DNA of 30,458 bases from a virus. Shown piece by piece: positions 124 through 30,458 of this stretch. The stretch spans positions 1-30,458 of the IMG/VR virus record IMGVR_UViG_3300010883_000264; one strand, given 5' to 3'. Within the stretch, counting starts at the first letter, position 1; each line of letters begins with the position of its first letter. The translations under genes and the position numbers were made by a program. The notes below the pieces were generated by a model that did no database searches, was not told the DNA's origin, and saw only the letters and a program-made list of their open reading frames with translations.

Positions 124-291
124 CACGTATGAATCTGATCCATTTGATTTTGTAAATTGTAAAGGATTGATTAATAAATTTGCACGTTCAATTATTTTTT
201 CTTCATTACTAAGATTTTGAAATTTAGATAAAACTTCAATTTGCTTTAGATTCTCAACTTGGCTTTTGTTTAATTTGTTTGGGTTTTTCAT
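1..291 (-). CDS. Unknown early protein, partial; completed across the circular join
   Basis: Starts at ATG 291 behind the leader AAACCCAAAAACAAACCATT and reads 97 codons to the window edge. Across the join it continues from 30335 to a stop at 30297, giving 109 residues and ending just before a strong hairpin at 30261-30286. The N-terminus is Lys/Asn-rich. The C-terminal half carries a probable beta-rich segment (FDFCGDHYKLQWN, then YSPKYGFAY). I recognise no family. It is the second gene of the unit driven by the promoter at 689-718, separated from the first gene by the hairpin at 312-340. Confidence 0.85.
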   Translation of the reverse strand, partial: MKNPNKLNKSQVENLKQIEVLSKFQNLSNEEKIIERANLLINPLQFTKSNGSDSYVCKVVDFTRNGKTLIFDFCGDHYKLQWNTKNNRYSPKYGFAY

Positions 292-311
292 AATGGTTTG
301 TTTTTGGGTTT

Positions 312-340
312 AAAAAAATGCGGGGATTTCACCCGCCGGT
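312..340 (-). terminator. GC-rich hairpin with T-run between early genes
   Basis: Read on the minus strand, GCGGG pairs with CCCGC around a 7-nt loop (positions 320-336) and is followed by seven T residues. It lies between the stop of the 346-648 gene and the start of the gene at 291, with no new promoter in between. It could be a partial terminator or an mRNA-processing or stability hairpin. The stem, the loop apart from one base, and the flanking leader are also found at 29947-29975. Confidence 0.7.
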
Positions 341-345
341 TTTTT

Positions 346-648
346 TTATTTTATTAGATTTTCTAATTCTTCAACGGATTTGTTTTCTTGATCTACAAAT
401 GAAAAGAACGTTGCATTGATTACTTTGTTTGTTGTCATATTCCAATCAATTTCCGTTTTCCATGAATGAACAATATTTTTTTTAATTAATGAAGATAAAA
501 CCGCACGTAAAGTTTTGATTTCAATTCCGGTTGCATTTGAAATATCTAATGCTTCAATTGGTGAATATCCTTCCTGACCAATCCACATATCTAATTCGTT
601 AATCATTGTTGCAATTACTTGTGTTTCTAAAGTAGTAAAGTTTTTCAT
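346..648 (-). CDS. Winged-helix-like small protein
   Basis: 100 residues. I chose ATG 648 over an upstream ATG at 684, because the promoter at 689-718 would place the transcript start beyond 684 and the AACAAACATT leader directly precedes 648. Residues about 33-60 (IEALDISNATGIEIKTLRAV and the following LSSLIKKNIV) look like a helix-turn-helix with the recognition-helix pattern of a winged helix. A DNA-binding regulatory role is inferred from this only. It is the first gene of its unit. Confidence 0.8.
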   Translation of the reverse strand: MKNFTTLETQVIATMINELDMWIGQEGYSPIEALDISNATGIEIKTLRAVLSSLIKKNIVHSWKTEIDWNMTTNKVINATFFSFVDQENKSVEELENLIK

Positions 649-688
649 AATGTTTGTTTTTGTGCGTTTGTTTGTTTGTTGCACACTT

Positions 689-718
689 CAAAGATACAAC
701 ATTCTTTTACTAAATCAA
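689..718 (-). promoter_or_regulatory. Bacteroidota-type promoter
   Basis: On the minus strand TTG at 718-716 is followed after exactly 19 nt by TATCTTTG at 696-689, matching the Bacteroidota consensus TTTG/N19/TAnnTTTG. The same spacing and nearly the same bases recur at 2659-2688, 5263-5292, 12828-12857 and 30199-30228. It drives the gene at 346-648. Confidence 0.85.
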
Positions 719-785
719 CATTTATTTTAGTTTATTTTACTTTTATTTTGCATTTTATCCGGAACACCCCCGTTTCATTGGGTTT

Positions 786-2283: not shown

Positions 2284-2322
2284 AAATCAAATTTATATTA
2301 ATGGTTTTCATTTGGGTTAAAT

Positions 2323-2344
2323 AAAAGGGGGAATTTCACCCCCC
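2323..2344 (-). terminator. Intergenic hairpin
   Basis: On the minus strand five G residues pair with five C residues around TGAAATT (2327-2343), followed by TTTTATTT. It lies between the 2352-2627 gene and the replication initiator. The loop matches that of the hairpin at 4899-4923. Confidence 0.6.
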
Positions 2345-2351
2345 AAATTTT

Positions 2352-2627
2352 TTATCCTTCGATTGTGTAACTACACATTAACAATGTGATCATTTGTATT
2401 TCCGTTCCGTTTTTTAATAACTCGGTAATATCATTAAATGATTTTGCACCGTAACATGAAAATAAATTGTTTTCAAATGTTAAATGTAATGTTCCGTGTT
2501 CCGTGTTACAAATTGACATACCACCTTCGGATTTTAACAATGTAATATCTTCAATTGCATATAATTTTAATGCATCTATTGTTGAAAGAACTTCGCTTGA
2601 TACTTGATTTTTGAATTGATTAGTCAT
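2352..2627 (-). CDS. Unknown early protein
   Basis: 91 residues. ATG 2627 is chosen over 2672 because the promoter at 2659-2688 places the transcript start inside the longer frame and the AACAAACATT leader sits at 2627. There is an amphipathic helix near the N-terminus (EVLSTIDALKLYAIEDI), then short probable beta strands (GTLHLTFENNLFSCYGA). I recognise no family. It is the first gene of the unit that also carries the replication initiator and VRR-NUC genes, so it is presumably made early. Confidence 0.8.
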   Translation of the reverse strand: MTNQFKNQVSSEVLSTIDALKLYAIEDITLLKSEGGMSICNTEHGTLHLTFENNLFSCYGAKSFNDITELLKNGTEIQMITLLMCSYTIEG

Positions 2628-2658
2628 AATGTTTGTTTTTTTGTGGTTGATTACACTC

Positions 2659-2688
2659 CAAAGATACAACAAACTTTTAATAAATCAA
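2659..2688 (-). promoter_or_regulatory. Bacteroidota-type promoter of the replication unit
   Basis: TTG at 2688-2686, 19 nt, then TATCTTTG at 2666-2659 on the minus strand. It precedes the genes at 2627, 2283 and 1142. Confidence 0.85.
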
Positions 2689-2743
2689 TGTTTATTTTAC
2701 TTTATTATTAATTTAATTTTGTTTTTGTAGCAAAATCAACACA

Positions 2744-3581: not shown

Positions 3582-4009
3582 TATATTTTTTTCCAATTCT
3601 TTAAAAATGAATTTTTTGCAATGGATCGTGAAATTTTATTGTTTACAACAACAACAAATACATCATTATATTTTGATTCATCAACAACCCATATTTTTTT
3701 GCTTCGTTTATTCATCCACTTACCCGAAATTGAAAGTTGTTTTTTATTCTTCACTTGTTCTTTGTGCTTTGCTTTCAATGATTCCGTGTTTTCATTCATT
3801 GCATCTTTTAAATAAAGTGAATAAAAAAATGGATCTACATCATCATTTTGTTTGAAAAAACTTTTTAAAATTCTTGCCTCTAATTTGGATTTTTTAATAT
3901 TACGTGTTGACATTAATTTGATCCCCCTAATAAAACCATTTGCAAATGATGTTGCTATAAAGAAAAAAACTAAAAGTATTGCACCGGTTATTAATAAAAT
4001 TTTAATCAT
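3581..4009 (-). CDS. Unknown membrane-anchored protein
   Basis: 142 residues. Residues about 3-24 are a continuous hydrophobic segment (ILLITGAILLVFFFIATSFA), reading as a single membrane anchor or signal anchor. Positive charges follow, suggesting that the basic remainder stays in the cytoplasm. No catalytic motif is visible. A one-pass membrane protein within an early replication-type unit is unusual; a host-takeover or superinfection-exclusion role is possible but not shown. Confidence 0.75.
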   Translation of the reverse strand: MIKILLITGAILLVFFFIATSFANGFIRGIKLMSTRNIKKSKLEARILKSFFKQNDDVDPFFYSLYLKDAMNENTESLKAKHKEQVKNKKQLSISGKWMNKRSKKIWVVDESKYNDVFVVVVNNKISRSIAKNSFLKNWKKI

Positions 4010-4014
4010 AATTT

Positions 4015-4425
4015 TTAATTTTTTGTTGATTGTGAAAATTCATCCGCTTCAATTTCTGAATAAACGCCCAATGAATAGAAATTTGTAATTTGCAAAACGG
4101 CACGTGCTTTTGCTCGTTTTTCTGCCATTTCTAAATAATATGTTGATTGACAATTTTTTGGTTGTGCGGTTCCGAATGTTGGAATTTTAATCACTCCACT
4201 TTTGCTTTGCATTGATGCCGTGCATTTAACGGCTGAAAAATCGGGATCACATCTAACAATTTCATATGTTAATGTTATGTTATCCTTTGCCATTATTTTT
4301 TCAATTCCGGTTCGTGTTACAATAGCAAAACCAAATGTTTTGTGTTTAAAAATATCTTCTTCATTCAATTCATAATGAAGATACAATTCTTTCAATCTTG
4401 CGCGGTTTGTGTTTGGTTGATCCAT
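4015..4425 (-). CDS. Conserved phage protein with MAEKRAKARAVL motif
   Basis: 136 residues. The distinctive stretch is residues about 99-130 (YLEMAEKRAKARAVLQI, then FYSLGVYSEIEADEF). From memory this is shared by many small phage and prophage proteins near replication and recombination genes. I do not know of an assigned function for it. Two Cys in the middle (RCDPDFSAVKC) could pair or bind metal. First gene of the unit 4425 to 2744, which ends in an SSB-like protein, so a DNA-metabolism role is plausible. Confidence 0.8.
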   Translation of the reverse strand: MDQPNTNRARLKELYLHYELNEEDIFKHKTFGFAIVTRTGIEKIMAKDNITLTYEIVRCDPDFSAVKCTASMQSKSGVIKIPTFGTAQPKNCQSTYYLEMAEKRAKARAVLQITNFYSLGVYSEIEADEFSQSTKN

Positions 4426-4449
4426 AATTTTTTGTTTGTTTGTGTATTA

Positions 4450-4482
4450 CAAATATAGTTAATAAAGTTTTATTTAATGCAA
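4450..4482 (-). promoter_or_regulatory. Probable Bacteroidota-type promoter
   Basis: TATATTTG at 4457-4450 on the minus strand matches TAnnTTTG; TTG at 4482-4480 lies 22 nt upstream, three longer than the other early promoters. It is placed to drive the 4425-2744 unit. Confidence 0.6.
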
Positions 4483-4749
4483 TTAATTTTTATAAATATT
4501 TCCGCCGTATTTCGGTGTTGAATCCGCATCAATTAAACCGTTTGATGTGATCCGTAATCCTAAAACAATATCACCACGTGAAATGTTTTCAATTAGTTTT
4601 TTCCATTTTGCGTAATTTCTATATCCCGAATCAATGCACGTTTTAAATGATTTTTCACCATCATTAAAAAATAAATAATACATTGTTCCACCGGTTTTTT
4701 GTGATGGCATAGATTTTTGATTTTTAAAATGAAATTGTTTTTGATTCAT
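4483..4749 (-). CDS. Unknown early protein
   Basis: 88 residues. ATG 4749 overlaps the upstream stop as ATGA, which favours it over an ATG at 4785 in the same frame. Residues about 25-60 (TMYYLFFNDGEKSFKTC, YRNYAKWKKLIENI) look like a small alpha/beta protein, and the C-terminus ends with GLIDADSTPKYGGNIYKN. The pattern of an aromatic strand, a lone Cys and a KWKKL helix recurs in many Bacteroidota mobile-element proteins, but I cannot name a family. Confidence 0.75.
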   Translation of the reverse strand: MNQKQFHFKNQKSMPSQKTGGTMYYLFFNDGEKSFKTCIDSGYRNYAKWKKLIENISRGDIVLGLRITSNGLIDADSTPKYGGNIYKN

Positions 4750-4880
4750 AATTTTTTGGTTTGAATGGTAATTGTATTTTTCCAATTATCCAATGTGTGA
4801 ATTACTTTGATCCTCGTTTTTAATTCAATTTCATTTACAATTTGATAACGTGTAAATATATTTTTTAGAAAATTTTTCAT
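4746..4880 (-). CDS. Unknown 44-residue protein
   Basis: ATG 4880 follows the leader CAACCCAAAAAAACCACA, of the type in front of other early genes, and the frame ends in ATGA overlapping the start of the next gene. The protein is basic and beta-prone (IELKTRIKVIHTLDNWKNTITIQ). The proper leader and coupled stop make it more likely to be a real small gene than noise. No function is visible. Confidence 0.6.
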   Translation of the reverse strand: MKNFLKNIFTRYQIVNEIELKTRIKVIHTLDNWKNTITIQTKKL

Positions 4881-4898
4881 TGTGGTTTTTTTGGGTTG

Positions 4899-4923
4899 AA
4901 AAAAATGGGGGAATTTCACCCCC
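4899..4923 (-). terminator. Intergenic hairpin with T-run
   Basis: On the minus strand five G residues pair with five C residues around TGAAATT (4907-4923); A and a run of T residues follow. Same design as at 2323-2344. Separates the 4934-5230 gene from the 44-residue gene. Confidence 0.65.
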
Positions 4924-4933
4924 TTAATTTTTT

Positions 4934-5230
4934 TTAGAATTTTGTGTAAAGACCGGTTGTTGTTTCAAAAATGTTTACCAATTGATCATTGTAAATTCCG
5001 TTGAATTCGTGTTTTGTTTTCATTTCGCCACCTCTTATTGAAATGAATTCAATTTCGTATGTATCCATTGCATTTAATGAAATTTTAAGGTAATTCGCAC
5101 CTGATGAATTACGTGCCAATTTCATTGTTAGAAAATTCTCACCCGCAATTAGGTTTTTAGATCCGGTAAATGCTAAAAATTTTCGGCCTCCTAACTGATT
5201 TAAAATTGTTGTTGCTACTTGATTTTTCAT
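4934..5230 (-). CDS. Conserved phage/mobile-element small protein
   Basis: 98 residues, ATG 5230 behind an AACAAACATT leader and a consensus promoter. The motifs TTILNQLGGRKFLAFTGSKN near the N-terminus, LKISLNAMDTYEIEF in the middle and an N-terminal Leu-Gly-Gly are, from memory, common to a widespread family of short phage and plasmid proteins of unknown function that often end in GLYT plus a few residues, as here. I assign no activity. It is the first gene transcribed after the lysis cassette terminator. Confidence 0.85.
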   Translation of the reverse strand: MKNQVATTILNQLGGRKFLAFTGSKNLIAGENFLTMKLARNSSGANYLKISLNAMDTYEIEFISIRGGEMKTKHEFNGIYNDQLVNIFETTTGLYTKF

Positions 5231-5262
5231 AATGTTTGTTTTTTTGTGGTTGATTTATACCT

Positions 5263-5292
5263 CAAAGATACAACATTCTTTTACATATTCAA
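5263..5292 (-). promoter_or_regulatory. Bacteroidota-type promoter
   Basis: TTG at 5292-5290, 19 nt, TATCTTTG at 5270-5263 on the minus strand. It starts the early region downstream of the lysis genes. The gene-free stretch 5293-5425 holds nothing else I can name, apart from a short repeated ATAAACC motif near 5390-5410. Confidence 0.85.
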
Positions 5293-5425
5293 CATTATTT
5301 TTACTTTATTATTGATTTAATTTCATTTTATGAGCAAAACCAACGGTTCACAAGCCAAATTATTTTGAAAATAGTTTATACTTTACAACAATAAACCATT
5401 ATAAACCCTTTTTAATGGCAAAAAC

Positions 5426-7849: not shown

Positions 7850-9085
7850 TTAAATTGTTGTTTTTGGTTGTAAAACTCTATCACCATCTTCGGTTGCTTC
7901 GAATCCTAAAACCAAACGTTGTTCATTAATAGTTAAAACCGTTGATGGCACAATATCGGATAAAAATGATACCGGCGGTTCATATATAATTTCAAAATCT
8001 GAAATATCTAATGTTGTTAAATCACCAATGATTTTTTGAATCTTTCCAAAAATCAAACTTTCAACATCTTTGATAATTGTTCCCATCACCATTTCCCACG
8101 CAACACGAATTTCATTTCCCGTTGAACTTAATTTGCCGGAACTTACAATTCCACTCATTGCCGGTTGCCAACGGTGCGAAGTGATAATGTTTTGGGATGT
8201 CAGTTTTTGCAATTCCATAAATGAACCATCTTTTGCATCGGATAAAACGGTAACACTTGCGGGTGCGGTATCACCATTTTTTACAAGGAATAAAATCTTT
8301 GAATTATTATCTCGCCCCGTCCATTTTTCTTGTGCTTCTTTTACTAATTTTTCCGCTTCTTCTTCACCCATATCACCATTGATTTCAACAATTGCGCTTG
8401 GTGTAAAATTATTTTTAAACTTGGATAAATTATAATTTTGTAATTGGTGATCTATGGATAGCCATTCAAGGGATGCAACAAAATCCGGTAATCCGTAATA
8501 ATTAAATGTTGCTTCATAATCTTTGAATTGAACAATCGAAGTGTTTTTTTCAAAATCAGGATAAACCGGAACAATTACCGCATCATTTTTTGATGATCCA
8601 TATTCCGCCCAATTTGGGTGAATGTAAATATGTTTTTGATCTTTAGAAACACGGCACTTTGTTGCATCAATATGGAATAAATTTATCCCACCTTCATATT
8701 TTACGATTTGCATATATGCGTTCCCAAATGAATAATAATCATCTATGATGCGCCCGTAAACCTCACGTAATGATTCGCCGGTGTTTACATCCTTAATAAA
8801 ATCTTCAACATCGGGATTTTCGGAAAAAAAGTTTTTCCCCATAGATAAGATTTTTTTTTGACCTAAAATTGCACGGTGTGTTGGTGATTGCCTTTTTACC
8901 TCCGCTAAAAATTGTGGAAATAAATTATCTTCACCACTCGGAACAAACGGTGTGCGAATAGATTTTAAATTAACGTCCTCACGTATTTTTTCGGGAACGC
9001 CAATATTGAAAACATCGAATTTAGTAAAACCTTTTTTTTTCGCAACGTCTTTAATCGTTTGCGTTGTTTTCTTCGATTTCTTCAT
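7850..9085 (-). CDS. Portal protein (HK97/PBSX type)
   Basis: 411 residues, the usual portal length. Typical portal features are visible in order: an N-terminal region (residues about 30-75) with PSGEDNLFPQFL; the clip/stem region with YYSFGNAYMQIVK; the segment YYGLPDFVASLEWL followed by QLQNYNLSKFKNNFTPSAIV; and a C-terminal helical region. The portal forms the dodecameric DNA channel at one capsid vertex and docks terminase. Its ATG lies inside the end of the 9051-9242 gene (35-nt overlap). Unusually it is transcribed after the capsid gene and far from terminase. Confidence 0.93.
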   Translation of the reverse strand: MKKSKKTTQTIKDVAKKKGFTKFDVFNIGVPEKIREDVNLKSIRTPFVPSGEDNLFPQFLAEVKRQSPTHRAILGQKKILSMGKNFFSENPDVEDFIKDVNTGESLREVYGRIIDDYYSFGNAYMQIVKYEGGINLFHIDATKCRVSKDQKHIYIHPNWAEYGSSKNDAVIVPVYPDFEKNTSIVQFKDYEATFNYYGLPDFVASLEWLSIDHQLQNYNLSKFKNNFTPSAIVEINGDMGEEEAEKLVKEAQEKWTGRDNNSKILFLVKNGDTAPASVTVLSDAKDGSFMELQKLTSQNIITSHRWQPAMSGIVSSGKLSSTGNEIRVAWEMVMGTIIKDVESLIFGKIQKIIGDLTTLDISDFEIIYEPPVSFLSDIVPSTVLTINEQRLVLGFEATEDGDRVLQPKTTI

Positions 9086-9242
9086 TTTTTTGTGTTGATT
9101 TGATTTCCTTTACGTGTTGAAATCCAATTTTATACAATTCTTTTAATTCCTTTTGTGTTACTTGTGTTGGGTAATAATCCCTTCCATTATGTCGAAATTT
9201 TTTCGCCCTTGCAACATCTTGTGTTAATTTATATTTAGCCAT
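9051..9242 (-). CDS. Unknown small structural-region protein
   Basis: 63 residues, ATG 9242 after a late-type A/T leader. The N-terminus (KYKLTQDVARAKKFRHNGRD) followed by VTQKELKELYKIGFQHV and an acidic Asn-rich tail resembles short proteins encoded next to portal genes in Bacteroidota phages. First gene after a strong terminator, so it may start a separate transcript; no good promoter was seen in 9243-9290. Confidence 0.75.
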   Translation of the reverse strand: MAKYKLTQDVARAKKFRHNGRDYYPTQVTQKELKELYKIGFQHVKEIKSTQKNEEIEENNAND

Positions 9243-9290: not shown

Positions 9291-9325
9291 AAAAAAAATT
9301 GGGAACACTCTTAAATGTTCCCAAT
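9291..9325 (-). terminator. Strong intrinsic terminator after the capsid/tail-tube genes
   Basis: A perfect 10-bp stem, ATTGGGAACA (9298-9307) with TGTTCCCAAT (9316-9325), 8-nt loop, and eight or more T residues on the minus strand. A weaker 7-bp inverted repeat (ATTTGAA/TTCAAAT) sits next to it at 9329-9347. It splits the head genes into two transcripts. Confidence 0.85.
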
Positions 9326-9381
9326 CTTATTTGAATACATTTCAAATTTAATCTAATTTTTACATATTAAATAACCTCCAT

Positions 9382-9948
9382 TTAAATAAATGGTGCAACG
9401 GTTGTGCTTCCCGTATATTCACGCGGGTATTCGCCTTGTTGCGTTGTTATTGTGATCAAAGTTCCGTTTGCATCTTGCAATGCCATACCGGTTGCCTCTG
9501 CACCGCTTGTAAACTCCATATATGCGGTTTCATCAAAAATTTCATCCCAACCTAAAACAAACTTATATGTTGCGGGTATTGGTGAAACGCAATCATCTGC
9601 ATAAGATTCAACAACCGCCGTAATTCCGCATGATGTAACTAATTCCATTAAATCAAAATTCACAACTCCGGTTACTTTTGGAATGTAAAATTCTAATGAA
9701 ATATCAATCATTGTTGAACCGTTTTCACGTGTTGCATCCGCCGTAAATCCCGCCGTTCCACGATCAAATTGCCATTTGTAAAATACTTTTGATGCAACCA
9801 TTGTTACCGCATCGTAATCTAATAATCCCGCCGTTGTTCCCGCCGTGAATGATTCAATATCATCCGTGTTTGTTAACCAAATTGTTTTTAATCCGCCACG
9901 TCTATTGCGGTCGCAACAAACAACGGTGTGTCCTGATGTTATAGCCAT
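9382..9948 (-). CDS. Probable major tail (tube) protein
   Basis: 188 residues, beta-rich. The N-terminus (SGHTVVCCDRNRRGGLKTIW) and the C-terminal pattern GMALQDANGTLITITTQQGE are those of a structural protein I associate with Flavobacteriia phages and usually annotated as the tail tube or a virion structural protein. It follows the capsid gene directly, with 22 bp between them. It could instead be a head decoration protein. Two adjacent Cys (11-12) and a later Cys pair are unusual for a virion beta protein. Confidence 0.6.
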   Translation of the reverse strand: MAITSGHTVVCCDRNRRGGLKTIWLTNTDDIESFTAGTTAGLLDYDAVTMVASKVFYKWQFDRGTAGFTADATRENGSTMIDISLEFYIPKVTGVVNFDLMELVTSCGITAVVESYADDCVSPIPATYKFVLGWDEIFDETAYMEFTSGAEATGMALQDANGTLITITTQQGEYPREYTGSTTVAPFI

Positions 9949-10984: not shown

Positions 10985-11410
10985 TTATGCTTTGCGTTGT
11001 AGTGTTTTCACCATTGCATTAAAAAATGCCATGTTTGGATCCATTATTGAATTTTCAATTAGTTGTGGATCACCTGATGGTGTTACATCGGTTTTTCCCG
11101 CTTTGATTTTTGAAATTTCTTTTGCTTGATTTAGAATTTCAAGGTTTGCAACTTCTAATTCTTGCGTTTTATTTTCAACCTCTGCTTCGCTCATTCCCAT
11201 TTTTTCTTCAATGGCCTTTATTGCCATATCCAAATTATCAACACGGTCTTTCAATTCTTCATAAGATAACGCCCAATCCGCATTTTCGGCGGGTGTTCCT
11301 TCTTCGTGTCCTTCTTCGTGTTCGTTTTTAACACCTAACATTGATTTGATTTTTCCAATTAATGATGCTTCATTTGAAACAACATTTTCATTTTGCGTAT
11401 TTTCCGCCAT
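10985..11410 (-). other. Possible independent scaffold product from an internal start
   Basis: An in-frame ATG at 11410 (residue 208 of the protease gene) is preceded by TCAAAACGTT and starts MAENTQNENVV, exactly where the protease domain ends. The resulting 141-residue product would be acidic and coiled-coil (EELKDRVDNLDMAIKAIEEK), like a scaffold. Lambda makes Nu3 from C by the same principle. This is inferred; no expression evidence exists here. Confidence 0.4.
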
Positions 11411-12031
11411 AACGTTTTGATTTGATTTATTTATAATATTGTTTATTTTTTTTTCCGTAATATTTTGAAATTTTGAAATGTCATAATTGTTTTCAATTTT
11501 CAATGATTGCGTTATAGTATTTGCCAAACCTAATTCCAACGTTTCGGTTGAATTAAACCATGATTCAACATCCATTAAATTAATATAATGTTGCGCATCA
11601 TGTTTTGATTTTGATGCGTATATATCGGCAATCTCATTTCTGATTTTATCTAAAATGTCCGCCGTTTTTCTTAATTCGTTTGCATCACCTCCCGACATTG
11701 CAAATGGATTGTGAATCATAAACAAAGAATTTTCCGCCATTTCGATTTGATCACCCGCCATTGCAATAACCGATGCAATGGATGCACAAATTCCCTCAAC
11801 TTTCGTTGTTACTTTTTTGGTGTGTGTTTTTAAAGCATTGTAAATTGCTAATCCATCGAAAACGGATCCACCCAAAGAATTAATATGAACATCAATGTTT
11901 TTATCCTTAACCGCTTTTAGTTCATTGATAAAACTTTTCGCATTAACATCAAATCCGCCAACCTCCGAATAAATATAAATATCCGCCGTTTCTGAATTTG
12001 CCTTGTTTTTAATGTCGAACCATTTATTCAT
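10985..12031 (-). CDS. Prohead maturation protease (ClpP/S14 type) fused to scaffold-like C-terminus
   Basis: 348 residues. Residues about 15-190 form a ClpP-like serine protease: INSLGGSVFDGLAIYNAL near the oxyanion strand, nucleophile S84 in EGICASIASVIAMAG, and H107 in FMIHNP. Residues about 208-348 are acidic with a coiled coil and no protease motif, typical of a scaffold. It processes the scaffold and perhaps other prohead proteins before DNA packaging. It lies 30 bp from the capsid gene. A -7-like element at 12036-12043 lies only 4 nt before its ATG. Confidence 0.92.
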   Translation of the reverse strand: MNKWFDIKNKANSETADIYIYSEVGGFDVNAKSFINELKAVKDKNIDVHINSLGGSVFDGLAIYNALKTHTKKVTTKVEGICASIASVIAMAGDQIEMAENSLFMIHNPFAMSGGDANELRKTADILDKIRNEIADIYASKSKHDAQHYINLMDVESWFNSTETLELGLANTITQSLKIENNYDISKFQNITEKKINNIINKSNQNVMAENTQNENVVSNEASLIGKIKSMLGVKNEHEEGHEEGTPAENADWALSYEELKDRVDNLDMAIKAIEEKMGMSEAEVENKTQELEVANLEILNQAKEISKIKAGKTDVTPSGDPQLIENSIMDPNMAFFNAMVKTLQRKA

Positions 12032-12035
12032 TCAA

Positions 12036-12043
12036 CAAAAATA
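12036..12043 (-). promoter_or_regulatory. Possible -7 promoter element close to a start codon
   Basis: TATTTTTG on the minus strand fits TAnnTTTG but has no TTG at the usual spacing. It lies 4 nt before the protease ATG, so transcription would begin at or near the start codon. The 26986-26993 site has the same arrangement. Confidence 0.35.
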
Positions 12044-12080
12044 TATAACGTGAAAAATAATTTTACGAAATAACGAGAAT

Positions 12081-12107
12081 AAAAAAACACCGACAAATTG
12101 CCGGTGC
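12081..12107 (-). terminator. Terminator ending the small-gene cassette
   Basis: CACCG (12088-12092) pairs with CGGTG (12102-12106), extended inward with one mismatch by CAA/TTG; seven T residues follow on the minus strand. It isolates the cassette at 12131-12857 from the protease gene. Confidence 0.8.
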
Positions 12108-12130
12108 TTTAATTTTTGTGTTTTGTTTTT

Positions 12131-12313
12131 TTAATCGTCTAATAAATAATTTAAAACAATATCATATTCAAGTTTAAATAATTGTTTTAATTCAATTGCA
12201 CTTAGTTCTTCAATGTCTTTATCTAAAAATAAATTTGAAAAATCATTAAGTGATTTTGTAGATTCATCAATTGTTTCTTTTGTGTTTCTAATAATATGTT
12301 TTGTGTTACTCAT
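12131..12313 (-). CDS. Unknown 60-residue acidic cassette protein
   Basis: ATG 12313 carries the early leader AAACCCAAAACAAACCATT; an upstream ATG at 12349 falls inside the hairpin and is rejected. The sequence is helical and acidic towards the C-terminus (DKDIEELSAIELKQLFKLEY). No family recognised. Small acidic phage proteins of this type often bind host proteins or mimic DNA, but nothing here shows that. It is the last of three genes in the cassette. Confidence 0.75.
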   Translation of the reverse strand: MSNTKHIIRNTKETIDESTKSLNDFSNLFLDKDIEELSAIELKQLFKLEYDIVLNYLLDD

Positions 12314-12332
12314 AATGGTTTGTTTTGGGTTT

Positions 12333-12361
12333 TTAATAAAGGGGTGCAATTCGCACCCCTT
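12333..12361 (-). terminator. Intergenic hairpin in cassette
   Basis: GGGGTGC (12341-12347) pairs with GCACCCC (12353-12359), extended by AA/TT to 9 bp with a 5-nt loop. The downstream T-run is weak on the minus strand, so this may be a processing or stability hairpin rather than an efficient terminator. Confidence 0.6.
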
Positions 12362-12366
12362 GTTTT

Positions 12367-12522
12367 TTATTTTACGATTTGTGTTAAATGATCATATAAC
12401 AATTGCATTTGATTTTCAAATGATAATGGTTTTTTGTTTCCATTTTCTGATTTACTGAATTCGTTGTAATAATAATCAAGATACTTCTCAATTGTTGTTT
12501 TTTGTTTTTGTGTAATTTTCAT
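12367..12522 (-). CDS. Unknown 51-residue cassette protein
   Basis: ATG 12522 follows TTAAAACAAACAATT, close to the early leader. The protein is basic at the N-terminus (MKITQKQKTTIEKYLDYYYN) and helical. It ends 6 nt before the next hairpin. Sub-threshold in length for most gene callers, but flanked by a correct leader and hairpin. Function unknown. Confidence 0.7.
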   Translation of the reverse strand: MKITQKQKTTIEKYLDYYYNEFSKSENGNKKPLSFENQMQLLYDHLTQIVK

Positions 12523-12554
12523 AATTGTTTGTTTTAATAAATTTGTTTGTTTGT

Positions 12555-12569
12555 TTACGCTTTCTTCAT
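12555..12569 (-). other. Four-codon open reading frame (ATG AAG AAA GCG TAA)
   Basis: It sits directly behind a canonical early leader (AAACCCAAAAACAACCA) and 33 nt before the next real start. It may be a leader peptide that feeds ribosomes into the downstream gene, or the remnant of a deleted gene. Confidence 0.35.
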
Positions 12570-12587
12570 TGGTTGTTTTTGGGTTTT

Positions 12588-12612
12588 AATAATGCGGGGA
12601 TCTCACCCGCCC
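12588..12612 (-). terminator. Intergenic hairpin in cassette
   Basis: GCGGG (12594-12598) pairs with CCCGC (12606-12610) around TGAGATC read on the minus strand. The same stem and loop occur at 29947-29975; 312-340 differs by one loop base. The T-run is poor (ATTATTAAAA). Confidence 0.6.
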
Positions 12613-12618
12613 TTTTTT

Positions 12619-12798
12619 TTAATTTGTTTTAATTAATGGCTTTAGTATTGAATAAACCATTAAACCGATATTTGCATTAAAATATTTTGATTGACATGTT
12701 TTTGAATCTTTACCGTATTTTCTAACATCGCCAATTGTTTGTGCTTCAATCATCATTGCTCTAAGATTAATCATTTGGTGTAGGTTTGAATTTTTCAT
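12619..12798 (-). CDS. Unknown 59-residue cassette protein
   Basis: ATG 12798 stands behind AAAAACAAACATT and a consensus promoter, so expression is well supported. The protein starts MKNSNLHQMINLRAMMIEAQ and continues TIGDVRKYGKDSKTC. It is mainly helical, Met-rich near the N-terminus, with a single Cys. No family recognised. It is the first gene of the cassette. Confidence 0.8.
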   Translation of the reverse strand: MKNSNLHQMINLRAMMIEAQTIGDVRKYGKDSKTCQSKYFNANIGLMVYSILKPLIKTN

Positions 12799-12827
12799 AA
12801 TGTTTGTTTTTGTTTGTTTGATTACCT

Positions 12828-12857
12828 CAAAGATACAACAAACTTTTACTAAATCAA
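12828..12857 (-). promoter_or_regulatory. Bacteroidota-type promoter of the small-gene cassette
   Basis: TTG at 12857-12855, 19 nt, TATCTTTG at 12835-12828 on the minus strand. It is essentially identical to the early-region promoters although it lies among structural genes. Confidence 0.85.
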
Positions 12858-12886
12858 CATTATTTTTACTTTAATGTGAAATTAGT

Positions 12887-13276
12887 TTATAAAACACGGT
12901 CTTTCAATGCTTTACGTGTCTTATTTTTATTTGATTCTTTGATTTTTATCTTGTAATCCGTGATAATTGTGGCATTTTTAGTGAATTTTGACCGGTATTT
13001 GTATACAATACTTTGAATTTGCCGGTCTGACATTTCATATTTTATTGCTAAATCCATGAATGTATGTGTAATGTGTCCTTTGTTAACCTTCAACAATGCA
13101 TCAAAATCGTGAATAATTAGATAGTTTCTAATTCTTGTGGGTTCACACAACCCTTTTTCCGCTAAATGATACACAACATCCTTTGTTGTGGCATATTCTC
13201 CAAATCTCGTTTGAACTTCAACCCACATTATTTCTATGAAATCAACGATTAAATTTATTTTATTTGGTTTTGCCAT
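12887..13276 (-). CDS. Helix-turn-helix-like protein
   Basis: 129 residues. Residues about 71-95 (HTFMDLAIKYEMSDRQIQSI) read as a helix-turn-helix in which SDRQIQSIVYKYRSKF would be the recognition helix. The region 29-65 contains another possible helical DNA-binding segment, and the C-terminal 30 residues are very basic. It could control late genes or bind packaging DNA; neither is shown. The start overlaps the upstream gene by 22 nt. Confidence 0.75.
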   Translation of the reverse strand: MAKPNKINLIVDFIEIMWVEVQTRFGEYATTKDVVYHLAEKGLCEPTRIRNYLIIHDFDALLKVNKGHITHTFMDLAIKYEMSDRQIQSIVYKYRSKFTKNATIITDYKIKIKESNKNKTRKALKDRVL

Positions 13277-28548: not shown

Positions 28549-29006
28549 TTGCATTTTACGATATTTTTTAATTTAAAGATATTTTTTTCACTCCATCGTT
28601 GGATTCTATTTTTCAAAGATCGTTTAACGTATTCAATGCCGTGTGTTTTTAATTGTTGTTCAACAAAATATTTTAATTCATCTTTACCATCGTATTGAAT
28701 CCAATCTTCAAATTCTTGTGTTTCATATTCTTGATAAACGGATTCGCTTGAATAATCCCAATGATCGGAAAAAGATATTAATGTTTCATTTGCTTCAATC
28801 GAATCACGGAATGATTCAAAATTAGACGTTCTAATAAAGTTTAATTCATCTTCGAACCATTCACACCAAAAAACTATTAAAACATCATCACGGTCTTTAA
28901 AATAGTAAACGGTGCATTCTAATCCGCCAATTGTAGTTTCATAATCTAATGTTTCGGTTCCATTGTTCAAAATGGTTAACATTATAAATTCGTGATTGTT
29001 TTTCAT
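28545..29006 (-). CDS. Unknown early protein
   Basis: 153 residues; ATG 29006 stands after AAACCCAAAAACAACCACA, while the longer frame (to 29147) overlaps the upstream gene. N-terminal beta-rich part (LECTVYYFKDRDDVLIVF), middle very acidic (SESVYQEYETQEFEDWI), basic C-terminus (KRSLKNRIQRWSEKNIF). No recognised fold. It is followed by its ATGA-coupled neighbour. Confidence 0.75.
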   Translation of the reverse strand: MKNNHEFIMLTILNNGTETLDYETTIGGLECTVYYFKDRDDVLIVFWCEWFEDELNFIRTSNFESFRDSIEANETLISFSDHWDYSSESVYQEYETQEFEDWIQYDGKDELKYFVEQQLKTHGIEYVKRSLKNRIQRWSEKNIFKLKNIVKCK

Positions 29007-29031
29007 TGTGGTTGTTTTTGGGTTTTTGTTT

Positions 29032-29283
29032 TTAGATGTTGCAATACATTTTTGATTCCCATTCAAAACCAAATGATTCATCCAATTCAACGGTAAATCC
29101 TTGCGCTTCAATTTTTTTGATTGTTTTCTTGATCTTATTATTATCAAGTGTTATTGCAAATGATTCAAGATTTAAAATCACGTTTTCAAGTTCACAAATT
29201 TTCTTTGTTGAAACGGTTGTAAATGCACCCACCGTTTGAATTACGTTTAAAACACGGTTGTATTTGATGTGTGTAATTATCAT
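29032..29283 (-). CDS. Unknown early protein
   Basis: 83 residues from ATG 29283; an ATG at 29310 would lie at the transcript start given by the promoter at 29314-29343. Features: a beta-prone N-terminus (MIITHIKYNRVLNVIQTVGA), a middle ICELENVILNLESFAITL and a helical Ile/Lys-rich segment. No family recognised. First gene of the unit that continues to 27427. Confidence 0.75.
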   Translation of the reverse strand: MIITHIKYNRVLNVIQTVGAFTTVSTKKICELENVILNLESFAITLDNNKIKKTIKKIEAQGFTVELDESFGFEWESKMYCNI

Positions 29284-29313
29284 TTTGTTTGTTTGTTGTG
29301 GTTGATTCATACC

Positions 29314-29343
29314 GCAATATACAACAATGTTTTAATAAAACAA
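29314..29343 (-). promoter_or_regulatory. Bacteroidota-type promoter, variant -7 box
   Basis: TTG at 29343-29341 and TATATTGC at 29321-29314 with a 19-nt spacer on the minus strand. The -7 box departs from TAnnTTTG at the last two positions, so it may be weaker than its relatives. Confidence 0.6.
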
Positions 29344-29351
29344 GTTTTTTT

Positions 29352-29735
29352 TTACTTTATTTTAATAAATGTTTCTATTTCCCACGTATAAAGACTTTTA
29401 AGGATTTCAACAACCATTAATTCATTATCCGTAATCAATCTTTTTTCACCATATTTTAACGCAAAACAATTATTTCCGTAATCAATCCAAACCATTCCAC
29501 ATTTCATTTCCGTTAAAACAACACTTCCATAAAGTTTTGTAAAGGTAACATCTTCAATTGCGTTTTTTAATGCTTCATTGTTCAATTCAAATGCACCATC
29601 GTATTTTGTTTTTACTTTTTCAATCCGATCCAATTCATTTTTTGCACCCAAAAATGTTTTGTATTTTTTTGAAAGTTCTATTCCGGAATATGAAACAACT
29701 TGAAAGTAATTTTCTATTTGTTCAACTTTATTCAT
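29352..29735 (-). CDS. Unknown early protein
   Basis: 127 residues, ATG 29735 behind AAAACCCAAAAACAAACATT. The N-terminus is helical (NKVEQIENYFQVVSYSGIEL), with a basic helix and later strands (YGSVVLTEMKCGMVWIDYG, NCFALKYGEKRLI). One Cys in each of two strands. Alpha-beta architecture; no family recognised. Last gene of the unit starting at 30169. Confidence 0.8.
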   Translation of the reverse strand: MNKVEQIENYFQVVSYSGIELSKKYKTFLGAKNELDRIEKVKTKYDGAFELNNEALKNAIEDVTFTKLYGSVVLTEMKCGMVWIDYGNNCFALKYGEKRLITDNELMVVEILKSLYTWEIETFIKIK

Positions 29736-29772: not shown

Positions 29773-29925
29773 TTAACGTGAACAAATCATATCAGGATTG
29801 AAAGTTTCAAATTCCTTTTGCGCCCAATTTCGCGCATCATCATATGATTTAAAAAATTTAGTTTCTTCAAAAAAATCTTTATCCTTATTTAAATAATTTA
29901 TATAAAATTTGAAATCTTGATTCAT
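29773..29925 (-). CDS. Unknown 50-residue protein
   Basis: ATG 29925 has the leader ACCCAAAAAAACAAATATT; a longer frame to 29994 would start in the hairpin. The protein MNQDFKFYINYLNKDKDFFE continues with SYDDARNWAQKEFETF, a pattern of strand, basic loop and aromatic helix found in many tiny phage proteins. Function unknown. Confidence 0.75.
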   Translation of the reverse strand: MNQDFKFYINYLNKDKDFFEETKFFKSYDDARNWAQKEFETFNPDMICSR

Positions 29926-29946
29926 AATATTTGTTTTTTTGGGTTT

Positions 29947-29975
29947 AAAAAAATGCGGGGATCTCACCCGCCGGT
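29947..29975 (-). terminator. GC-rich hairpin with T-run between early genes
   Basis: GCGGG (29955-29959) pairs with CCCGC (29967-29971) around TGAGATC read on the minus strand; seven T residues follow. The flanking GGGTTTAAAAAAAT on the plus strand matches that near 306-319, so the two elements are near copies. Confidence 0.7.
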
Positions 29976-29980
29976 TTTTT

Positions 29981-30169
29981 TTAATGGATAACAATTAATC
30001 CATTTGCAAAACTTTGTTTGTGCCACGTGCAAACACAAATTCCTTTTGCATTTCTAATAACAAAATCTTTGTTGATTTTTTTTGATGTTAATGCATCCGG
30101 ACATAATTTCTTGATTTGCTTAATTGTTGCCTTTCCGAATGTTTTTTGTGTGGTTGTTACTTGTATCAT
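29981..30169 (-). CDS. Unknown small basic early protein
   Basis: 62 residues from ATG 30169 (an ATG at 30196 lies at the expected transcript start). Reads MIQVTTTQKTFGKATIKQIK, then KNAKGICVCTWH-like residues near the C-terminus with two Cys and a His, which could bind a metal. Very basic. No family recognised. First gene of its unit. Confidence 0.75.
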   Translation of the reverse strand: MIQVTTTQKTFGKATIKQIKKLCPDALTSKKINKDFVIRNAKGICVCTWHKQSFANGLIVIH

Positions 30170-30198
30170 AATGTTTGTTTTTGTTTGTTTGAACACTT

Positions 30199-30228
30199 CA
30201 AAGATACAACAAAGTTTTACTTATTCAA
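30199..30228 (-). promoter_or_regulatory. Bacteroidota-type promoter
   Basis: TTG at 30228-30226, 19 nt, TATCTTTG at 30206-30199 on the minus strand. It lies directly after the terminator at 30261-30286 and drives the unit 30169 to 29352. Confidence 0.85.
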
Positions 30229-30260
30229 CATTTATTTTAGTTTATTTTCATTTAATTTTG

Positions 30261-30286
30261 AAAAAAGGGGGCAATGCCCCGCCCCC
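30261..30286 (-). terminator. Terminator after the gene spanning the circular join
   Basis: GGGGGC (30267-30272) can pair with GCCCCC (30281-30286), or GGGGC with GCCCC at 30276-30280; six T residues follow on the minus strand. It ends the unit that begins at 718 and crosses the join. Confidence 0.8.
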
Positions 30287-30296
30287 ATTGATTTTT

Positions 30297-30458
30297 TTAT
30301 CTTTCTAAATTTCTTTTTTCTTCTAAAATTGAAAAATAAGCAAATCCGTATTTTGGTGAATACCGGTTGTTTTTTGTGTTCCATTGCAATTTGTAATGAT
30401 CTCCACAAAAATCAAATATTAATGTTTTTCCATTCCTTGTAAAATCAACAACTTTGCA
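30297..30458 (-). CDS. C-terminal part of the gene spanning the circular join
   Basis: This is the right-hand copy of the gene listed at 1-291: positions 30336-30458 repeat 1-123, and 30297-30335 add the last 12 codons (FSILEEKRNLER and a stop). It is not a second gene. The complete protein has 109 residues. Confidence 0.85.
   Translation of the reverse strand, partial: CKVVDFTRNGKTLIFDFCGDHYKLQWNTKNNRYSPKYGFAYFSILEEKRNLER
30336..30458. repeat. Direct terminal repeat, right copy (contig overlap)
   Basis: Identical to 1-123. See the left copy; most likely the overlap left when a circular assembly graph was written as a line. Confidence 0.95.

Follow-up and report, generated by a model that had tools for sequence, protein, structure and literature searches.

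The stretch of viral DNA analysed here (30,458 nt; hereafter the window) carries its main genes on the minus strand, and its two ends share an exact direct repeat (1–123 and 30336–30458), indicating that it is probably a complete phage map, circular or circularly permuted, of ~30.3 kb. Between the gene for an HTH-like protein and that for the prohead protease lies a cassette of three small genes, A, B and C, separated by hairpins and preceded by a promoter (Table 1). A preliminary description of the same DNA, made from the sequence, had listed these components, namely a consensus promoter of the cassette's own and three proteins of 59, 51 and 60 residues with hairpins between them, and all are confirmed here. 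Among named phages, the closest matches to the terminase are Flavobacterium phage 11b (47%) and Cellulophaga phage phi10:1 (46%); the capsid protein matched a single record at 23% identity, and the HTH-like protein matched none. Since neither of the latter two has a close homologue in named phages, the group to which the window belongs is known here only from environmental contigs; we place it among tailed Bacteroidetes phages, probably flavobacterial ones. DNA comparison with named phages returned matches for this region in the protease gene only, and those of the cassette were all weak and short.

Table 1. Features of the cassette, its flanks and the related repeats in the window
Feature	Position	Strand	Basis or remark
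HTH-like core gene, conserved; left-hand edge of slot	12887..13276	-	weak Mor similarity, below Pfam cut-off
Early-type promoter repeat, cassette copy	12795..12894	-	one of six-copy family in window
Gene A, 59 aa	12619..12798	-	ORF; relatives in two unrelated phage types
Hairpin GCGGG-TGAGATC-CCCGC between A and B; member of hairpin-plus-leader repeat	12594..12610	-	shuffle z -1.2; core repeat
Four-codon ORF (ATG AAG AAA GCG TAA; MKKA) between two complete leaders	12555..12569	-	sequence
Gene B, 51 aa	12367..12522	-	ORF; no relatives found
Strong hairpin AAGGGGTGC-GAATT-GCACCCCTT between B and C; same hairpin-plus-leader family	12339..12361	-	shuffle z -4.6
Gene C, 60 aa	12131..12313	-	ORF; no relatives found
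Intrinsic terminator, right-hand edge of slot; backbone element	12084..12110	-	shuffle z -5.3; also at empty L018
Protease/head operon promoter TTTCGTAAA...TATTTTTG	12036..12070	-	different class from cassette promoter; same place in nearly all relatives
Prohead protease (ClpP type), core gene; right-hand neighbour of slot	10985..12031	-	family match
Early promoter copy nearest to cassette's, 88% over 75 nt	30166..30265 (repeat about 30170..30244)	-	repeat comparison
Early promoter copy, 86%	5230..5329 (repeat about 5231..5308)	-	repeat comparison
Early promoter copy, 84%	2626..2725 (repeat about 2628..2715)	-	repeat comparison
Early promoter copy, 79%	656..755 (repeat about 649..734)	-	repeat comparison
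Early promoter copy, diverged, 78%	29292..29361 (repeat about 29286..29359)	-	repeat comparison
Early hairpin-plus-leader copies	278..351, 2286..2359, 4865..4938, 29913..29986	-	repeat search

Each of the three ORFs opens at the phage's A/C-rich standard leader and closes shortly ahead of a hairpin, a layout shared with several early genes; B and C are predicted to be coding from these leaders and the placement of their ORFs. The cassette genes form the most A+T-rich class of genes, with a GC content of 19–26% compared with means of 29% for early and 33% for late genes. Searches of Pfam, PHROGs and PADLOC gave no match at a meaningful E-value for any of the three proteins, which are thus as unrecognisable as first described; PADLOC consists mainly of defence proteins rather than inhibitors. 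The gene A family found nothing significant in the PDB (best match: small RNA polymerase subunit epsilon, E 0.22), and the gene A protein was modelled with moderate-to-low confidence as a two-helix hairpin (mean pLDDT 69.6, pTM 0.37). The MKKA ORF between A and B probably marks where a cassette gene has been deleted, which would agree with a turnover of the content.

Relatives of gene A with 48–52% identity (multiple alignment) occur in two other phage types, represented by L034/L103 and by L104, in which no homologue of the window's capsid protein was detectable (two of the three records are fragments). The relative stands among late genes, behind the terminase gene in L034 and L103 and behind the capsid gene in L104. 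In all three records it opens a cassette, with a promoter-like sequence before it and a hairpin and further tiny genes after it; additional copies of the L104 promoter lie at 1236, 1524 and 26073 of the same record. A core, NSxLHxxINLRAxMxEAxT, is kept with small departures in the three phage types, as is the start context. The gene-A-led cassette of L104, an unrelated phage of 33.9 kb, lies between capsid and connector genes (3861–4750). Searching named phages by tblastn recovered no gene A, and no prophage relative was confirmed in genome contigs searched with the HTH and gene A alignments.

The cassette promoter, on the minus strand, consists of TTG (12857–12855) and TATCTTTG (12835–12828) with a 19-nt spacer between them, and transcription is predicted to start at ~12823. 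This arrangement fits the flavobacterial/Bacteroidetes sigma-A consensus TTTG/TAnnTTTG (PMC6847099, PMC9723704) rather than the E. coli type, which accounts for its absence from the list produced by a sigma-70 scan, a method uninformative for this type of host. Compared with the cassette copy, the four closer early copies are 79–88% identical over 75–88 nt and the fifth is 78% identical (E 4e-22 to 4e-9), and all five precede early-region genes. A similar organisation is found in relatives: the slot promoters of G015, G020, G022 and G025 have copies elsewhere in their own records, several of them in the early region, while comparison within the same record revealed no repeated copy of the G018 slot promoter and short matches only for that of G019. 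Cargo is shared in the same manner. The 178-aa cargo protein of L071/L076/L077 is also encoded in the early region of G016, upstream of early genes and with the G016 slot empty, and the early region of G018 encodes a relative (28915–29073) of the 94-aa cargo protein from L082, indicating that some cargo families are common to the early region and the slot. The early-type character ascribed to promoter and leaders in the preliminary description is supported by these repeats and shared families, and promoter similarity, taken by itself, would have the slot transcribed early.

Leaders and hairpins point to the same region of the genome. An A/C-rich composition (AAACAAACATTATG) marks early leaders, and most late leaders are A/T; there are exceptions at several genes, and the A/T leaders earlier attributed to the neighbours of the cassette therefore stand as a tendency rather than a strict division. 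The hairpin-plus-leader unit is a repeat as well: of its six copies, two lie in the cassette and the remaining four in the early region. The hairpin between B and C and the terminator fold far better than shuffled sequences; that between A and B does not by energy alone, but the window contains five occurrences of its core, GGGTGARATYCCC, where 0.00 are expected (none in 100 shuffles). The early copies combine this core with a fixed leader between early genes, the stem varying and the loop TGARATY remaining constant, and the core also recurs in several relatives. No promoter is evident after the early copies, so that the genes downstream seem to depend on read-through. Three of these copies have ATTTTTTT, unlike the cassette copies with their broken T-tracts (ATTATT, TTTATT), on account of which the internal hairpins were rejected as sense-strand terminators. 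An Rfam match to sraA over the second hairpin was likewise rejected (28.4 bits against a family cut-off of 56).

The terminator is present in diverged form at most occupied sites of relatives, and the empty locus L018 has the same terminator between its HTH-like gene and protease promoter. We therefore assign it to the backbone and not to the cassette, and the insert becomes ~12111–12886; the closing terminator reported earlier is present, but is not the cassette's own. In the protease/head operon promoter beyond it, as in those of relatives, a conserved TTTCGTAA or TTTCGAA box replaces the early TTG box. A late activator of the phage may bind this box, and a candidate for that activator is the adjacent HTH-like core gene, with a weak similarity to Mor of E 0.003–0.005 (below the cut-off). 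Within the head operon, a long near-perfect inverted repeat with a T-tract (9295–9328), between the genes at 9382–9948 and 9051–9242, resembles a strong terminator.

A search with the HTH-like family yielded 35 viral loci containing the HTH–protease junction, the locus L009/L068 being identical to the window and counted as the same phage. The slot is empty in 23 of these loci, with 26–105 nt between the HTH-like and protease genes, and filled in 12, where the gap measures 449–1486 nt and holds one of seven unrelated types of cargo: the three genes A, B and C as in the window; a 72-aa protein; the 178-aa protein, at three loci; a 118-aa protein; a pair of 132 and 56 aa, at three near-identical loci; a short ORF of ~60 aa; and a C5 DNA methyltransferase in L082/L084, accompanied in L082 by the 94-aa partner. 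The methyltransferase is recognised by Pfam at E 2.4e-48 and is 59–60% identical to Flavobacterium-phage enzymes. In PADLOC, its 94-aa partner (L082 4446–4730) weakly matches the TIR-like protein ThsB (E 0.0014 over 43 residues). For the 178-aa protein, a profile search of the PDB gave nothing significant and no match was found in named phages.

Exchange of the cargo can be followed between close relatives. L018 and L019 form a near-isogenic pair in which the former is empty and the latter carries an insert of ~440 nt at a single break, with flanks 87% and 90% identical; no clear target duplication was visible by eye at this junction. In L069, L072 and L078, the promoters (74–87% alike), terminators (72–91%) and start of the protease gene (87–93%) are conserved around cargo that is 19–30% alike, a figure obtained by global alignment of unrelated sequence, suggesting that cargo has been swapped between conserved edges. 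In a tree of core proteins, 10 of the 11 rows in the window's clade (support 80/96) are occupied, the empty L018 being the exception, and the methyltransferase pair L082/L084 falls outside this clade. The slot is thus probably old within the window's clade, with its content turning over there. The eight slot states need at least seven changes on the tree, which is the least possible number.

Morons are units inserted between genes that are adjacent in relatives, with a promoter and terminator of their own, a different base composition and independent expression (PMC4378225, PMC2147016). On sequence evidence, the cassette has its own promoter (TTG-N19-TATCTTTG) directly upstream, its genes deviate in base composition, and the genes on either side of it have no cargo between them in most of the surveyed loci; a strong terminator ends it, yet is shared with an empty site. 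Presence and absence among relatives, the unrelated cargo that others hold in this position and the existence of a close pair with one empty and one occupied slot speak for the moron arrangement proposed in the preliminary description and exclude conservation of the cassette in all relatives. The moron reading of 12111–12886 is well supported, and we consider it likely that this interval is a moron-type accessory cassette with an early-type promoter, occupying a dedicated, exchangeable cargo slot bounded on one side by the HTH-like core gene and on the other by the backbone terminator and late promoter of the protease operon. On entry, the cassette would be read by host RNA polymerase along with the other early units and without dependence on the surrounding late operons, and the terminator would keep its transcript out of the head operon, which would wait for its own promoter. 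The two weak internal hairpins may grade expression down from A to C, and replacement of the cargo would proceed through recombination within its conserved flanks, the promoter on one side and the terminator on the other, as well as through transfer to and from the early region.

What the cargo does is a separate matter, and the host-interaction or anti-defence content foreseen in the preliminary description is suggested rather than established: one cargo type is a DNA methyltransferase, but nothing recognisable is encoded by A, B or C. Host takeover or counter-defence is the most likely role; for the three genes themselves we put the chance of such an early function at about even, and the slot methyltransferase of two relatives probably has one. 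That the slot is more specifically a counter-defence island, each cargo blocking a particular bacterial immune system in the manner of anti-CRISPR operons in Mu-like Pseudomonas phages, we hold to be plausible, if slightly short of an even prospect. It is favoured by the methyltransferase occupant, a typical anti-restriction gene, and by the anti-CRISPR genes found in accessory regions of Mu-like phages of P. aeruginosa (PMC4378225). Small, fast-changing, unrecognisable proteins under an early promoter also fit, and conserved early promoters have served to find anti-defence genes in archaeal viruses (PMC11065993). An anti-defence role is nevertheless only suggested, by this occupant and by precedent: no match to a known inhibitor or defence-related family was obtained for A, B and C in Pfam, PHROGs and PADLOC, nor for A in the PDB, and the methyltransferase is one of seven cargo types, present at two loci in a clade other than the window's. 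The cargo could instead comprise host-takeover factors, toxic to the host through shut-off of its transcription, replication or division, which we regard as rather unlikely. An early promoter and small size are typical of takeover genes and are found here, and the low-confidence two-helix model of gene A, its core fixed in three phage types and its non-significant best match to RNA polymerase subunit epsilon (E 0.22) lean the same way; no takeover protein was matched significantly, however, and one would not expect a slot that most relatives leave empty to hold such genes, which should be harder to dispense with.

We give little credence to the idea that A–C are late accessory virion or assembly factors, such as decoration proteins or chaperones, belonging functionally to the head operon. 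The cassette adjoins the protease and capsid genes, and in the Mu-like phage PaMx73 an accessory gene located between those for protease and capsid, gene h, is a putative head-decoration gene (PMC4378225), but the cassette promoter is of the early class, unlike the conserved protease promoter, the terminator parts the cassette from the head operon, and the cargo includes a methyltransferase as well as families also present in the early region. Less credible still is that only the promoter and the leader/hairpin repeats are real, with B and C, or all three, being chance ORFs in A+T-rich intergenic DNA, perhaps at a small-RNA locus. Such a reading could draw on the lack of relatives of B and C and on the sub-threshold sraA match over the second hairpin (28.4 against 56 bits), whereas the protein sequence of gene A and its start context are kept in unrelated phages, and all three ORFs run from a standard leader to just before a hairpin, as do several early genes.

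The moron-type cassette draws attention to a precise and repeatedly refilled cargo slot in an uncultured group of Bacteroidetes phages. A single position has yielded seven unrelated cargoes, and the promoter repeat connects these with other early genes, which makes the slot a cheap source of candidate early effectors. To our knowledge, counter-defence genes of Bacteroidetes phages are poorly known, and a candidate list drawn up by position and promoter is hence directly testable. It is conceivable, though we remain doubtful, that gene A founds a family of travelling accessory proteins, always first in their cassette and always under the early promoter of the recipient, and that small-gene cassettes are captured by promoter duplication, which would be a general route for turning gaps between late genes into early counter-defence loci.

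This kind of cassette is itself already known; the gene A (A59) family and the logic of the copied promoter are new here. The cassette resembles the morons of lambdoid and other phages in its insertion between adjacent core genes, its own promoter and its deviating composition, but it comprises three genes where the usual moron has one. It also differs from textbook morons in having a promoter that duplicates an early promoter of its own phage, in ending at a backbone terminator and in sitting in a slot that has been filled anew, with other cargo, in other members of the group. The anti-defence genes of archaeal viruses are similarly small, unrelated and scattered genes linked by one conserved early promoter (PMC11065993), although the window represents a bacterial phage with a Bacteroidetes promoter, known here from its sequence. 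In comparison with Mu-like phages of P. aeruginosa, the window belongs to a different phage group in which no anti-CRISPR or Aca relative was found and the methyltransferase is the only recognisable cargo; the 'regions of genomic plasticity' of those phages are nonetheless alike in occupying fixed positions between core genes and in holding variable small genes of unknown function, some of which are anti-defence genes (PMC4378225).
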